NCBI GenBank assembly: GCA_964023275.1
Contig: OZ029929.1
Coordinates: 4,919,381 to 4,983,380 of the forward strand
Length of the DNA stretch: 64,000 nt
Origin: Norana najaformis
Taxonomy: Eukaryota > Annelida > Clitellata > Crassiclitellata > Hormogastridae
Direction of reading: 5' to 3'
Positions 52,451 to 64,000 of this stretch are shown one piece after another. The position numbers were made by a program, and so were the translations under genes. The notes beneath the pieces were generated by a model that saw only the letters and a list, made by a program, of their open reading frames with translations, had not been told where the DNA came from and ran no database searches. Numbering within the stretch: position 1 is the stretch's first letter; every line of letters begins with the position of its first letter.

Positions 52451-53452
52451 AGATGAGTTGGAACATGATGGACGTTGTATTTGGCAAGTGCCATTGATTT
52501 GTTTATAGTATTGGTTATTGATGTTATTAAGTGTAGGAAAATAAGTACAAGAATCATGTGATGCAATGTAATGAGATGAAGGAGAAAAAATTATACGAAA
52601 CCCCATCAGGTGAATTGCATGTCTAAGCATATGTCCAAGATTTCCAGTTAGGTTCAGAATTGATGTTAAGTTTTGACAATGTGTTAGCCCACTATATTTG
52701 GCAGAATGTTAGTATGTTTGTATGCATGCATCTCTATATTCTTACAGCATACATGTATACATGCATCTGCAAACATACATCGTGCATGCATATTTACTTA
52801 CTTACATCACTCATGCATCCATTCATACGTGAATACATGAACTGCTCGAAGCCAGGTGACTCAGGTATTGCTCGAGTGTGGCTGAGATGTCGGAAGCATC
52901 TGCCAACAAGTTCAACATAACAGATATCTGCGTTTATCTAGCTATCCATATATATATATATATGCATGTATCTGTGTGTGTGTATATTTGCGTATATCTG
53001 TATGTATATTTAAATGTCGTATATCTATACAAGTGACTCAGGCAGACGTAAAAATACCAGTTTTGTGAGTATCAATATGCATGAATATACGATGTCATTT
53101 GTAAAAACATGTATTTATTAGTATGAATGAGTTTTGCTGATTTAGATGGGGTGTACTTGTATATACTTGAGATTATTCCGGGTAATGGAGGATCAGTAGT
53201 CATTAACACTAAATTGCAATTAGCCTGACACCTGTGCTCACCTACTCAGATGCTTGAACAGACACAAACATGCAGACAGCCTGACCTAGGCTGACACAGG
53301 TGCATGTTTAGGTAATTGGTATATACATGAATTTGCCTGCTTATTATATATATATATAAATATATATAATATGTATATATTATATATGCATAATACATAC
53401 ACAAAAAATATTCATATATATATATACACAAAAGTCTAGGTAATGTGTGTAT
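52451..53452. other. No gene seen
   Basis: CATGCATA-type microsatellites and TA tracts (52945-53000, 53345-53440) flank the left end of the long-TIR element. Confidence 0.5.
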
Positions 53453-54268
53453 GGGCTATTCCGTGTGAAATCAACCAATTTCCTAACATTTTCCCACCTT
53501 CAACCTTAGATTTGGCTGAAAATTTCTCCATGTACCTGTCCACCATTTTGAGGCACAAATACAAAATTTTATTATGATATGTCAAAATTTGGTTTAGATA
53601 TACCATCTTAAAGTGAGGTGGGGTAGGCGAAAATTGGTATCCGATTTCGCGAAATGTTCTTTGAGGCCATGTTCAACATAAAATAACTCCAGAAGTAGAG
53701 GGGGTAGAGGCATGAGGTTTTCACTGTTGTATTCAGAAAGTGACTGGTGACCTAATGAGCCTATTACAATGACTGTGCCTTGAGTAGAGACTTTAGAGGA
53801 CAGCTGTCAATATGCCATCTCAGAAATCGCAAACTGTATTTTCTTCAGTTTGCCTCACCAATATGACGAAAAGCAGCTGCAAATTTTTTTTAATCTTTTC
53901 ATATTCTGATTTAGCAAGTAATGGGCTCCTACTGGATGTATTTTACTTTGATGTTTATTTACAAATGAAATCATACTGACATGCTAAACTTGGTCAAACT
54001 GATGAACGGGGGTCAACTTCACCAGCTGATATTGGGAAACTGACAACTGGGATCTACCTGAACTTCATATTTCTGAAAAGTGCATGCATTGACCTTTCTG
54101 GTGATACAAATTTGATTTTGGTGCTCAGAAGCAATCAGGAGCAATGCTTTGTTGAATATAGCTCTATTTTCGATGTCGCGACTAACCAGAATCCATGTCT
54201 AGTTTTGGCTGTTAATTATGTGATTATTCATTTTTCACTGTTATGTGTACCTCTATAAAACTTGCTAT
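53453..54268 (+). repeat. Left arm of the long terminal inverted repeat
   Basis: 816 bp, AT-rich, with no long reading frame. It differs from the reverse complement of the right arm by about 9 bp of length near 53480-53495 and by scattered substitutions, for example TTCTTTGAGG against TTCTCTGAGG. Such similarity implies a young element or recent arm conversion. Confidence 0.92.
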
Positions 54269-54454
54269 TTGTTTAGATTTGAATATGTATTGAAATCAAA
54301 GTCTGCAATCAAATTAACTAGCACATGCTATTTTCTAATATTATTCATTGACCTGCTTAAGATGTTTTGTGTCTAGGTCATGATTTAATATAAATTTCTC
54401 TCTATTCTATTAATTTTTATTGTGAAGAAATCATATTTTCCCCCAATGCCTTTA

Positions 54455-54750
54455 AGCCTTTATGCTAATTAGCCTCTAACATGCTAATTTGCCTCTAACA
54501 TGCTAATTAGCCTCTAAGCCTCTAAAGCCTCTAACATGCTAATTAGCCTCTAATGCCTCTAGCATCTCTAAGCCTCTAGGCCCTTATTCGAATTAGCCTC
54601 TGACATGCTAATTAGCCTCTAATGCGTTTAAGCCTTTATGCTAATTAGTCTCTAACATGCTAATTAGCCTCTAATGTCTCTAAGCCTCTAATGCCTTTAT
54701 GCTAATTAGCCTCCAAAATGCTAATTAGCCTCTAATGTTTCTAAGCCTCT
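54455..54750. repeat. Degenerate tandem array of GCTAATTAGCCTCTAA units
   Basis: Repeated blocks of GCTAATTAGCCTCTAACAT and GCCTCTAATG with irregular spacing. I count eight perfect CTAATTAG palindromes and two degenerate ones. CTAATTAG contains TAATTA, the classic homeodomain core. The array ends about 10 bases before a TATA box, so it could serve as upstream activating sequence for the element. Confidence 0.85.
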
Positions 54751-54756
54751 AAGGAT

Positions 54757-54943
54757 GCCTATAAAAGAGCATTAGCGTCGGCAGAGCCGTCCATCGAGTT
54801 TGAGGTCGCAGTACCATCAGCAGAGCAGTTCGTCAGCAGTAGTCGCAGTGTTCGAGTTCGACTCCGAAGTTTTCATTTAGCTAGTTAGTCGGCCGCGTTG
54901 AGTTGAGTACTCGAAATAGTTTAGTGGTTTAGTTGAGTAGTAG
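54757..54943 (+). promoter_or_regulatory. Predicted promoter and non-coding first exon of the long-TIR element
   Basis: TATAAAAG at about 54761-54768 is followed 25-30 bases on by GC-richer sequence unlike its AT-rich surroundings. A strong donor, TAG|GTAAGTC, sits at 54943/54944, and an acceptor TAACTGCAG ends at 54986, giving a very short 43-bp intron. All of this is inferred from motifs. Confidence 0.45.
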
Positions 54944-54993
54944 GTAAGTCACTGGCATAACTGTACTTCAGTTGTTATAACTGCAGTTTTAAG

Positions 54994-55179
54994 TTGCAAA
55001 CAATAAACGATAGAAACGTGAAGACTTTGTTGCTCAGCCTCCCGATAGACCATGGGAGCCTTGCCCTGTGGACCAACCCCAGAAGAGCACAGGTTAGGTC
55101 ATTCTGGTGTATGTTCGGACCAGCCACCCTCAGGAAACACATCCAGGGTTTTGTCCGTTACATTATCTGTGGTTTTTAA
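54994..55179 (+). CDS. Short reading frame in the long-TIR element, 61 aa, unknown
   Basis: The frame begins just after the predicted acceptor and includes LLLSLPIDHGSLALWTNPRR and VRSFWCMFGPATLRKHI. I do not recognise it. It has mixed hydrophobic and basic composition and no repeat content, unlike the microsatellite frames elsewhere. It may be a relict transposase piece or chance. Confidence 0.25.
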   Translation: MQTINDRNVKTLLLSLPIDHGSLALWTNPRRAQVRSFWCMFGPATLRKHIQGFVRYIICGF

Positions 55180-55587
55180 AACTGGACATGTGATTAGTCA
55201 GCAATTTTGAAGAGATTGTTAAGTAGATGATAATTTGTTTATCACTATCTTGGTCAGGATGTTAAAATTTAGTTTTTATTTTATGATTTACTGGGATTAT
55301 TTTGGGCAGAACATGTGATCTGTACTTGAGGCATTTTGAACAGATGTTAAGAGTTGTTGAATAGATGATAATTTGTTTTAACACTTCCAGTTAGTTTTAA
55401 ATAATAACTCATCGTGCAGTATAGAACTGCAGCACTTGTGGTCTGTTTTTACATTTATTTAAAAAATACAGTCTTCAATGTCTGATATGAAAACAAGTAC
55501 ATGATCCAGTCTGGAATTTCGGTGATATTTTGATCCTATGTTTTCAGTTTTTAGTTACATGACTCACTGCAGACAATTTCAGTAGTC

Positions 55588-55779
55588 ATGGACAGCTGCA
55601 GCATTGGAAGACACTGTAACCAAACCCAGGAATGTCATAAAACCACTTACACCACAAAAATTGGACTTAAGAGATTATCTGATTTGGCCGATGATGAAAG
55701 GCATATCTTTCTGCAAAGAATTTGTTTGGATAATCCAGTTCCTGAAATGACTGTCTGTCATCATCACGAGCAGATATAG
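55588..55779 (+). CDS. Cys/His-rich N-terminal fragment in the long-TIR element, 63 aa
   Basis: ATG follows an acceptor-like GACAATTTCAG. Cysteines at residues 4, 10 and 16, then RICLDNPVPEMTVCHHHEQ with two more cysteines and three histidines, look like a zinc-binding module. The segment DLADDERHIFLQRICL resembles N-terminal regions of large proteins I have seen repeated in cnidarian and mollusc genomes, but I cannot name the family. The frame stops two bases inside the right inverted repeat, as expected if the rest of a longer protein was lost by internal deletion. Confidence 0.5.
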   Translation: MDSCSIGRHCNQTQECHKTTYTTKIGLKRLSDLADDERHIFLQRICLDNPVPEMTVCHHHEQI

Positions 55780-56582
55780 CAAGTTTTATAGAGGTACACA
55801 TAACAGTGAAAAATGAATAATCACATAATTAACAGCCAAAACTAGACATGGATTCTGGTTAGTCGCGACATCGAAAATAGAGCTATATTCAACAAAGCAT
55901 TGCTCCTGATTGCTTCTGAGCACCAAAATCAAATTTGTATCACCAGAAAGGTCAATGCATGCACTTTTCAGAAATATGAAGTTCAGGTAGATCCCAGTTG
56001 TCAGTTTCCCAATATCAGCTGGTGAAGTTGACCCCCGTTCATCAGTTTGACCAAGTTTAGCATGTCAGTATGATTTCATTTGTAAATAAACATCAAAGTA
56101 AAATACATCCAGTAGGAGCCCATTACTTGCTAAATCAGAATATGAAAAGATTAAAAAAAATTTGCAGCTGCTTTTCGTCATATTGGTGAGGCAAACTGAA
56201 GAAAATACAGTTTGCGATTTCTGAGATGGCATATTGACAGCTGTCCTCTAAAGTCTCTACTCAAGGCACAGTCATTGTAATAGGCTCATTAGGTCACCAG
56301 TCACTTTCTGAATACAACAGTGAAAACCTCATGCCTCTACCCCCTCTACTTCTGGAGTTATTTTATGTTGAACATGGCCTCAGAGAACATTTCGCGAAAT
56401 CGGATACCAATTTTCGCCTACCCCACCTCACTTTAAGATGGTATATCTAAACCAAATTTTGACATATCATAATAAAATTTTGTATTTGTGCCTCAAAATG
56501 GTGGACAGGTACATGGAGAAATTTTCAGCCAAATCTAAGGTTGAAGGTGGGAGGGTCTGGTTGATCTCACACGGAATGGCCC
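55776..56582 (-). repeat. Right arm of the long terminal inverted repeat
   Basis: 807 bp, inverted relative to the left arm. The inner boundary is at ATAGCAAGTTTTATAGAGG; the outer end reads TCACACGGAATGGCCC. The short frame beginning at 55588 reaches its stop two bases into this arm. Confidence 0.92.
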
Positions 56583-56977
56583 GTATATATATATATGTGT
56601 GTGTACGAAATAGGTGTATGTGCAGATGCTTACAGATTTGTATATATAAATATATGTAGTATATATTTAAATGTATTTGTGGTTGTGTGTGTATGAGTGG
56701 AATTGGGTCATTGGCTTCCTTTTCTGAGTAATATATCTTTATATATGACTTGATTTTAAGTATTTATTTTTATGTACTATAATATACATACATATAATAT
56801 AAAAATATATGATACATATAATATACATACAAAATACACCAAGACACACACACATATATATATTCACATATGTATATAAATATGTATTGGCGGCAGTAAG
56901 TATTTGAGTGAAATTGAGCCAGTGGCATCCTTGTTCTGGGTTGGCCTTGTGGACGACTTCTGTCCCCAAGCAAATAG

Positions 56978-57052
56978 AGGGGACCCAATTAAGAAATGGA
57001 GGGGACCCAATTAAGAAATGGAGGGGACCCAATTAAGAAATGGAGGGGACCT
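56978..57052 (+). repeat. 23-bp tandem repeat, about 3.5 units
   Basis: The unit is GGGGACCCAATTAAGAAATG plus GAG. The last unit is truncated. Confidence 0.9.
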
Positions 57053-62552: not shown

Positions 62553-62622
62553 AATCAGTTAGTTGTGGGTAAGTACTGCTGCAGTTGAATCAGTTAGTTG
62601 TGGGTAAGTACTGCTGCAGTTG
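62553..62622 (+). repeat. Perfect 35-bp tandem duplication in a SYTL intron
   Basis: Two identical copies beginning AATCAGTTAGTTGTGGGTAA. Each contains a donor-like GGGTAAGTA. Perfect identity indicates a recent event. Confidence 0.92.
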
Positions 62623-64000
62623 AATGTCTGTTCTGTAATTTTATATAGACATTGTAATTGTAATCACAACATTTTATACAACATTGTCATTAGCAAGCTA
62701 CTTCAAGGATGCTTTACCTTGTCAAATGTCGATAGGGACAAGAGTTCAACATTATGCATGGTCAGTCGATCATTCAGACAGTCTGTCAGACAGAATCACT
62801 TAGTGGCATACAGAATATTTCGTTGACAGCTGAGTTTAGGATACTGTTGCCACTTTAGTGATTGTAAAAAGCTGTCAAATTCAGAAGCACATGGAATTAC
62901 ACAGAAACTCATTGAAATGCTACCTTTGGAGCCTGAATCAAGAACCAGCTTATGATGATGTCATGTTATAACTAGTTTATTTTCTATAGGAGAGTTAATT
63001 TTGCCATTTGCTCGACTGTGTTTTATCAGGATTTATGTTATAATGAAGCATGTCATAATGAGTCTCCAGCGTGTTTTGAGACACTTCGTAAAACAATTTA
63101 AGTTCTTTCTTGATATGCTGTCGCAATTTGCCGAGTAAAAATTCATATTGTTTTTCGCAGTACAACCAGTGACATCCTAGCATCCAGTGGGTAAAATTTA
63201 ATTTTCCCCATTTGCACACTTGTGTTCCGCATTTTTACCACTTACGTGAATGTCGTGTTGTCATTTGTTGCAGTTAAACCGCTTGTGTGAATGTGTGCTG
63301 ATGTGTTTTGCAAGTAAAACTGCTTCTTATGTGAATTTTTCATCGATGTTTATTGCAGTTGAAGCGCTTCTGAGTTGATGTGTACTGGAATTTGATCAGA
63401 TATGCTTTGTAGGCTAATGTTTGTTTCAATTCTTGCTGCATATGTCTAGGTTGTTTTCATTTTCCTGCATATATGAATGTTCAGTTGCAGTGTATACCAC
63501 TTTGAGTGAAATGTGTTGTGCTTCCTTGTATTTCAGTTTTAGTCAGTCGTGCACATGTTGCGTTGTTGATTTATAGTTTCCCACAACATTGTGTTGAGAG
63601 TGAACGTGTTTGTTTGATGATGGTAACCTAAAAATGCTTTTTTCTCTAAACTTGAAATGTTTTCTAGACAGAATTCTGGTGGAACTATTAATAACAACAG
63701 CTCTTCCAGATGTTCTTTGCAATTTGTACTTTCTTGAGGGATATATCTTCCCTTGGGTACAAAATAATAATTTAATTGGTACATGTAATTATAGGTAATA
63801 ATGTTAATAATAATAACAATAATTATAATAACTATAAAAGCAAAAATAAGTAAAACTGATGATGGACTGTCATCTCAGAAGAATGGCTTCAAACTCTGTT
63901 TTGCTTTCCTACATCATTGGATTTTAATGACATTAAAATCCAGCACCATGGCACCACAAAAATAGTAATGATAATAGTATTAGCAATGATTTTATTAATA
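62623..64000. other. SYTL intron, no exon recognised
   Basis: AT-rich unique sequence. Repeated variants of GTGAATGTGTGCTGATGTGT near 63240-63500 suggest a degenerate long-unit repeat. The phrase TGTCAAATGTCGRTAGGGACAA occurs at about 62057 and 62719. Confidence 0.4.

Follow-up and report, generated by a model that had tools for sequence, protein, structure and literature searches.

A probable internal-deletion transposon with long inverted arms in the annelid Norana najaformis, and its one-ended relatives

A 64,000-nucleotide stretch of the genome of the annelid Norana najaformis (assembly GCA_964023275.1, contig OZ029929.1, positions 4,919,381–4,983,380, forward strand; hereafter the window) contains a 3130-bp segment, at positions 53453–56582 of the window, with two long and nearly identical inverted arms. 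An earlier sequence-only reading proposed that this segment is a transposon and not a local rearrangement, and the questions raised by the locus are whether that is so and how such arms could have arisen. We conclude, with a probability of about 90%, that the segment is a young non-autonomous cut-and-paste DNA transposon, derived by internal deletion from a larger element that codes for a transposase-like protein and has AT-rich 4-bp target duplications. Near-identical relatives that have kept only one end, designated here by their locus numbers, raise a second question, that of how such copies are made.

The left arm of the element has 816 bp and the right arm 807 bp, and their inner stretches (53492–54268 and 55776–56552) pair across 777 nucleotides in a gap-free alignment with a single mismatch, which cannot be the result of chance. 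The match over nearly the full length and the 9-bp indel noted in the sequence-only reading are thus confirmed. The substitutions that it described as scattered are present, but not along the arms; nearly all of them lie, with the indel, in the outermost 39 bp on the left and 30 bp on the right. Distinct left and right end types are also found in most of the other copies read. The possible GTAT duplication is there on both sides of the element, and the core has only the first 63 codons of a transposase-like open reading frame (ORF), in keeping with the statement that a complete transposase is lacking.

Near-identical inverted arms are a known outcome of fold-back rearrangement and of assembly error, and the arms themselves could be taken for a one-off palindrome of this type; nothing else favors that explanation. 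When 608,420,607 bp (17 contigs) were searched with the left arm, 98 candidates were obtained, 40 of them scored matches with 98–100% identity, and 20 further genome stretches were taken for comparison, with more added later. Copies of the same 3.1-kb type, with different flanks and with target duplications, comprise 14 that are two-ended and seven that are one-ended (L009–L012, L016, L026, and L059). Ten of the 14 were aligned over their full length (the window element, L019–L025, L027, and L028), and the other four (within L065–L072) were read at their ends and for their spacing only, which is 3129–3130 bp. These dispersed copies refute a local inverted duplication or an assembly artefact, the probability of which is now practically nil.

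Across 3145 columns, the alignment of 17 copies is variable at 52, and several of these are accounted for by a 9-bp deletion in L019 or by single indels of L059. Such small divergence supports the view that the family is young, and it is probably recently mobile as well. At the paired positions 555 (left arm) and 2585 (right arm), these copies have three of the four possible combinations of variants, with both matched and unmatched pairs, which may reflect exchange or conversion between the arms. The end pattern occurs at 199 places in the genome with up to three mismatches and at none in a reversed control; the places listed are the best 100 of the 199, ordered by mismatches. These matches include a larger set of ends with the sequence GGGTCATTCCATGTCAAATCAACCA or a close variant of it (for example C1:12337726 and C1:12337962), and the genome may thus contain a broader group of which the family is part.

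Target duplications were compared in 24 two-ended copies of the family with both flanks read; L030 and L044, each with one flank unread, were excluded. The 24 include four short derivatives (L073, 307 bp; L074, 740 bp; L075, 806 bp; and L076, 527 bp) as well as two older relatives, located on C3 and C6, whose arms are 91–93% identical. A perfect 4-bp duplication is present in 22, the exceptions being L017 and L074, in which the duplication is imperfect. The 22 perfect duplications represent 18 distinct words, six of them palindromic, and 77 of their 88 bases are A or T; none is TTAA and three fit AWWT. The two-ended copies have both terminal inverted repeats (TIRs) at fixed ends and a target duplication of fixed length, as class II cut-and-paste elements do.

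The origin of the window element is indicated by comparison with a longer relative, L018 (C3:24013023–24017653; 4631 bp; TTTT duplication), which has TIRs of 392 and 383 bp. The left arm and core of the window element are colinear with positions 1–2332 of L018, with 97.6% identity, and the similarity ends after codon 63 of the transposase-like gene. What follows this codon in the window element is its own left arm in reverse complement, read outward from position 816, with the sequence ATA shared at the joint; the extreme right end is still right-specific. In older relatives the right arm has a common inner limit at 735 bp; one of these relatives spans ~5.77 kb and has a TATA duplication. The arrangement suggests that a parent element was excised and that gap repair copied its left part through codon 63, whereas the other broken end, carrying the right TIR, would have copied the homologous left arm past its old inner limit of ~735 bp. 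Joining of the two copied strands at the 3-bp microhomology would have removed most of the gene and extended the inverted repeat from ~735 to 816 bp, and the derivative could then have spread with transposase supplied from elsewhere. Gap repair of this type would account at once for the microhomology, the internal deletion, the lengthened TIR, and the fact that the arms are nearly identical inside but distinct at their outer ends.

The transposase-like gene is best seen in the longer relatives. In L018, ORFs of 323 and 333 amino acids lie in one frame with a single stop between them, followed by a frameshift ahead of the next conserved block. L014 has an open stretch of 419 amino acids that runs to a C-terminal stop, and for this reason the C-terminal part of L018 is judged to have been removed by deletion. 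The short ORF in the window element is 94% identical to the N terminus of the L018 ORF over a 71-column alignment. The middle ORF has at least 127 matching stretches in the genome, several of which can come from one copy, and most of the long ones are broken. When pieces from different copies are summed, the full protein would have roughly 880 residues. The blocks DFAENYSF, YFSDGA, and CDGIGG, which contain acidic residues, are conserved among divergent pieces of the relatives, and in alignments DFAENYSF, YFSDGA, and SHGKSPCDGIGG look like parts of a DDE/D core.

Two points weigh against this part of the interpretation. The copies read include no intact transposase, and the ORF has no library match that would support the name transposase, its fold and catalytic triad being putative. 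The family's transposase-like protein escapes Pfam: no family was found for pieces of 323, 333, and 87 residues (E up to 1) or of 230 and 323 residues (E up to 10), in searches that used the ORF in pieces, which a distant P-type relative could escape. The pieces had no match in NCBIfam. In the PDB, the 333- and 419-residue pieces gave only chance-level matches by sequence, and a profile search gave none; PHROGs gave one chance-level match (E 0.041). The 419-residue piece from L014 had no relative in the phage records, viral contigs, or prokaryote genomes searched. The conserved words of the protein had no match in the literature, and for the end sequence GGGTCATTCC and its variants, the 25 matches listed of 223 appear unrelated by title.

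The family, which may be new, belongs by mechanism to the cut-and-paste TIR transposons and has TIR growth like that of Galileo. The view that arms of this length are rare is only partly apt, since Galileo, a Drosophila element of the P superfamily, has TIRs of 1575 and 1608 bp (~1.6 kb) in the copy with the second longest TIRs, has many defective copies, and has TIRs that grew as both arms took in internal and ORF sequence (PMC4168063). Long TIRs, defective copies, and TIR growth from internal sequence are all shared with the present family, which shows in this genome, as Galileo does in Drosophila, that TIRs can be lengthened step by step by copying of internal sequence. The extension of 81 bp beside codon 63, with its 3-bp microhomology, works like that of Galileo but is not evidence of membership. 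Galileo was assigned to the P superfamily by its transposase, whereas the pieces found here have no Pfam match, although Pfam includes P-type models. The target duplications of P-type elements are also longer than the 4 bp found here, and membership in this superfamily is not shown.

The transposases of Sola elements are of the DDD type. Sola2 families of Dictyostelium and Polysphondylium are described as having TIRs of 12–21 bp and AWWT-like 4-bp duplications, and a Sola2-type transposase of 888 residues is reported (PMC3627910). The AT-rich 4-bp duplications and the summed protein length are similar in the present family, but its TIRs have 735–816 bp (383–392 bp in L018) and AWWT fits just three of 22 duplications. 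The duplication and the protein length make Sola a possibility, but such an assignment is a guess. Kolobok and piggyBac also have 4-bp duplications, which are TTAA in both, and the termini of Kolobok are 5′-RR (PMC9587614), a feature in common with the present ends. With no TTAA among the 22 duplications, the family differs from both, and Kolobok is ruled out.

Although the window element is two-ended, many of its relatives are not. With at most one mismatch to the end pattern, 41 loci were obtained, and by pairing among the matches listed, 23 of these are two-ended and 18 have no partner end; L076 was counted as two-ended with a partner end that has two mismatches. Fourteen of the 18 were read at the far end, three were unread there (C12:4213134, C1:45362136, and C7:15451447), and L063 runs off the fetched stretch. 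Both sides were thus read at 37 near-perfect loci, and 13 of these are one-ended. In another, L036, no more than 3 bp are absent, and its position in a tandem repeat makes any duplication unreadable.

In ten of the 13 one-ended copies, one end is trimmed by 6–248 bp and there is a target duplication of 5–47 bp. One copy of the duplicated sequence adjoins the intact end, and the other begins at the trimmed end, in L035 with one extra base in between. The lengths trimmed and duplicated are, respectively, 6 and 5 bp in L026, 15 and 7 bp in L016, 25 and 7 bp in L059, 37 and 14 bp in L035, 68 and 10 bp in L010, 92 and 27 bp in L060, 128 and 30 bp in L009, 158 and 39 bp in L061, 229 and 41 bp in L011, and 248 and 47 bp in L012. 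For L016 and L035 the trimmed length was judged by eye, BLAST having initially placed the limits at 12 and 33 missing bases. For the ten copies the Spearman correlation between the two lengths is 0.985 (at least 0.979 when any one copy is left out), with a slope of 0.176 and an intercept of 5.0 ± 2.2, close to the normal 4 bp. The relation is independent of how microhomology is assigned, and it is present separately in the five copies with an intact left end and in the five with an intact right end.

Duplications of variable length together with one truncated end are also the outward signature of target-primed reverse transcription of the type used by long interspersed nuclear elements. This origin is very unlikely here, however, because either end can be the intact one, the two-ended copies have 4-bp duplications, and no poly-A tail is present at the junctions inspected. 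An interpretation that we hold to be about evenly balanced between right and wrong is half-integration, in which the transposase joins one end of the element and host repair finishes the other. A linear excised element would be joined to the target by one end by the transposase, strand displacement at the nick would extend the target 3′-OH as resection shortens the free end, and the gap would then be closed by host end joining. Both lengths would grow with the life of the intermediate, which would account for their correlation and for the intercept. With slightly less assurance than for the mechanism itself, half-integrations could make up approximately a third (13 of 37) of the near-perfect insertions read at both sides, in which case the duplication would record the lifetime of the intermediate, gaining ~0.18 bp for each bp trimmed in addition to the normal 4 bp.

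A different possibility is that the elements first inserted normally and later became one-ended, when they were excised and the gap at the donor site was incompletely repaired. When an ordinary insertion is excised, the break should be left with 4-bp repeats only; duplications of 5–47 bp that adjoin an intact end are not created in this way, nor does late repair account for a duplication length that follows the trimming. Single clean breakpoints are found in 12 copies (the ten, L015, and L062; L064, being rearranged, is outside this set), and 11 of them lie within the outer 248 bp and are not spread along the element. Interruption of gap repair is described as a source of defective copies of P-type elements (PMC4168063), and such a process fits the internal deletions in the present family. 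L015, which has no duplication, also fits late repair better than half-integration. On balance we consider late repair an unlikely source of these copies.

The concentration of breakpoints could also mean that a trimmed element still forms a synapse through transposase bound inside the long arm, so that joining is displaced, the stagger grows, and the second joining is also made by the transposase. Such synapsis would explain why 11 of 12 copies are trimmed no further than about 250 bp and why the duplications are graded in length. By eye, however, the trimmed ends have no terminal motif in common, and most junctions have 1–5 bp of microhomology, with an extra base in L035, as end joining predicts. 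Synapsis of this kind appears improbable, to much the same degree as late repair.

Several observations weigh against half-integration. (i) Some of the three unread loci and L063 may prove to be two-ended, since a diverged partner end is possible. (ii) The duplications are imperfect in L012 (93.6%), L061 (97.4%), and L060 (one gap). (iii) Three one-ended copies do not fit: L015 is trimmed by 178 bp and has no duplication, L064 is rearranged and has no duplication, and L062 is a solo arm with 2414 bp missing and 6 bp duplicated. The correlation falls to 0.66 when L015 is added and to 0.37 when L015 and L062 are both added. (iv) The relation is post hoc, and more copies are needed; the ten copies that gave rise to the idea are also those on which it was tested, after the misfits had been set aside, and the p-values therefore describe it and do not confirm it.

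One-ended transposition is reportedly also known for Tn21. In single-ended transposition of piggyBac, as described in the available text, one transposon end takes part and the other stays joined to the donor molecule (PMC3952818). The participation of only one end is similar to half-integration, but here the other end is trimmed by 6–248 bp and the duplication scales with the trimming in ten copies. A limited search of the open literature, judged by title or the start of the abstract of the matches listed, found no report of a duplication that grows with end trimming in one-ended insertion of a DNA transposon. Near-identical one-ended copies offer a quantitative view of a possible response of the cell to target capture by one end. 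If half-integration is correct, strand displacement at stalled transposition intermediates has left a fossil record in the genome, and if the relation holds in more copies and in other families, existing genomes could give access to an intermediate for which assays are otherwise the only source.

Two copies on C5 that are 41 kb apart, the one-ended L009 (C5:33030497) and L023 (C5:32989200), have in common three variants that are absent from the other aligned copies and two more that are also found in L012 and L025. The three private variants and the short distance suggest a local hop, in which an insertion would have failed near its source.

The features of the window element are collected in the table.

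Features of the 3130-bp element and its target site (positions in the window)
Feature	Position	Strand	Basis or remark
Left 4-bp target site duplication, GTAT	53449–53452		Same word as GTAT on the right
Left arm of the TIR, 816 bp, end GGGCTATTCCGTGTGAAATCAACCA	53453–54268	+	Arm alignment and copies
Left-specific outer 39 bp	53453–53491	+	Differs from right end by 9 bp in length and by several substitutions
Core: promoter-like region, 5′ leader, and first transposase-like codons	54269–55775	+	Comparison with L018
Tandem GCTAATTAGCCTCTAA-type repeats, upstream of promoter-like region	54462–54753	+	Tandem-repeat reading
Putative TATA box, TATAAAAG	54760–54767	+	Function predicted from sequence
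Possible 5′-leader intron, donor AG/GTAAGT, acceptor TTTCAG/ just ahead of ATG	54944–55582	+	Splicing predicted from sequence
Transposase-like ORF, first 63 codons, stop at arm junction	55588–55779	+	Match to L018 ORF
3-bp microhomology ATA joining transposase codons to inverted left-arm copy	55776–55778		Comparison with L018
Right arm, 807 bp	55776–56582	−	Inner 81 bp (55776–55856), lengthened repeat of this subfamily; outer 726 bp common to relatives
Right 4-bp target site duplication, GTAT	56583–56586		Pairs with left GTAT

With TATAAAAG, AATAAA, and TTAT at both sides, the core could be taken for a solo long terminal repeat, but this was ruled out by the colinearity of the left arm and core with the 5′ part of L018. 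The signals in the core are better read as the promoter and leader of the transposase-like gene. The 63-codon ORF is whole in 15 of 16 other copies examined and has 52 codons in L059. Because the TATA-like box, the splice-like sites, and this ORF are retained, the element may give rise to a short N-terminal peptide.

Two tandem repeats lie to the right of the element in the window. The first, at 56972–57051 and just beyond the element, has a 22-bp unit (AAATGGAGGGGACCCAATTAAG) in 3.6 copies with 98% matches, and the second, at 62553–62625, is a perfect 35-bp tandem duplication in 2.1 copies.

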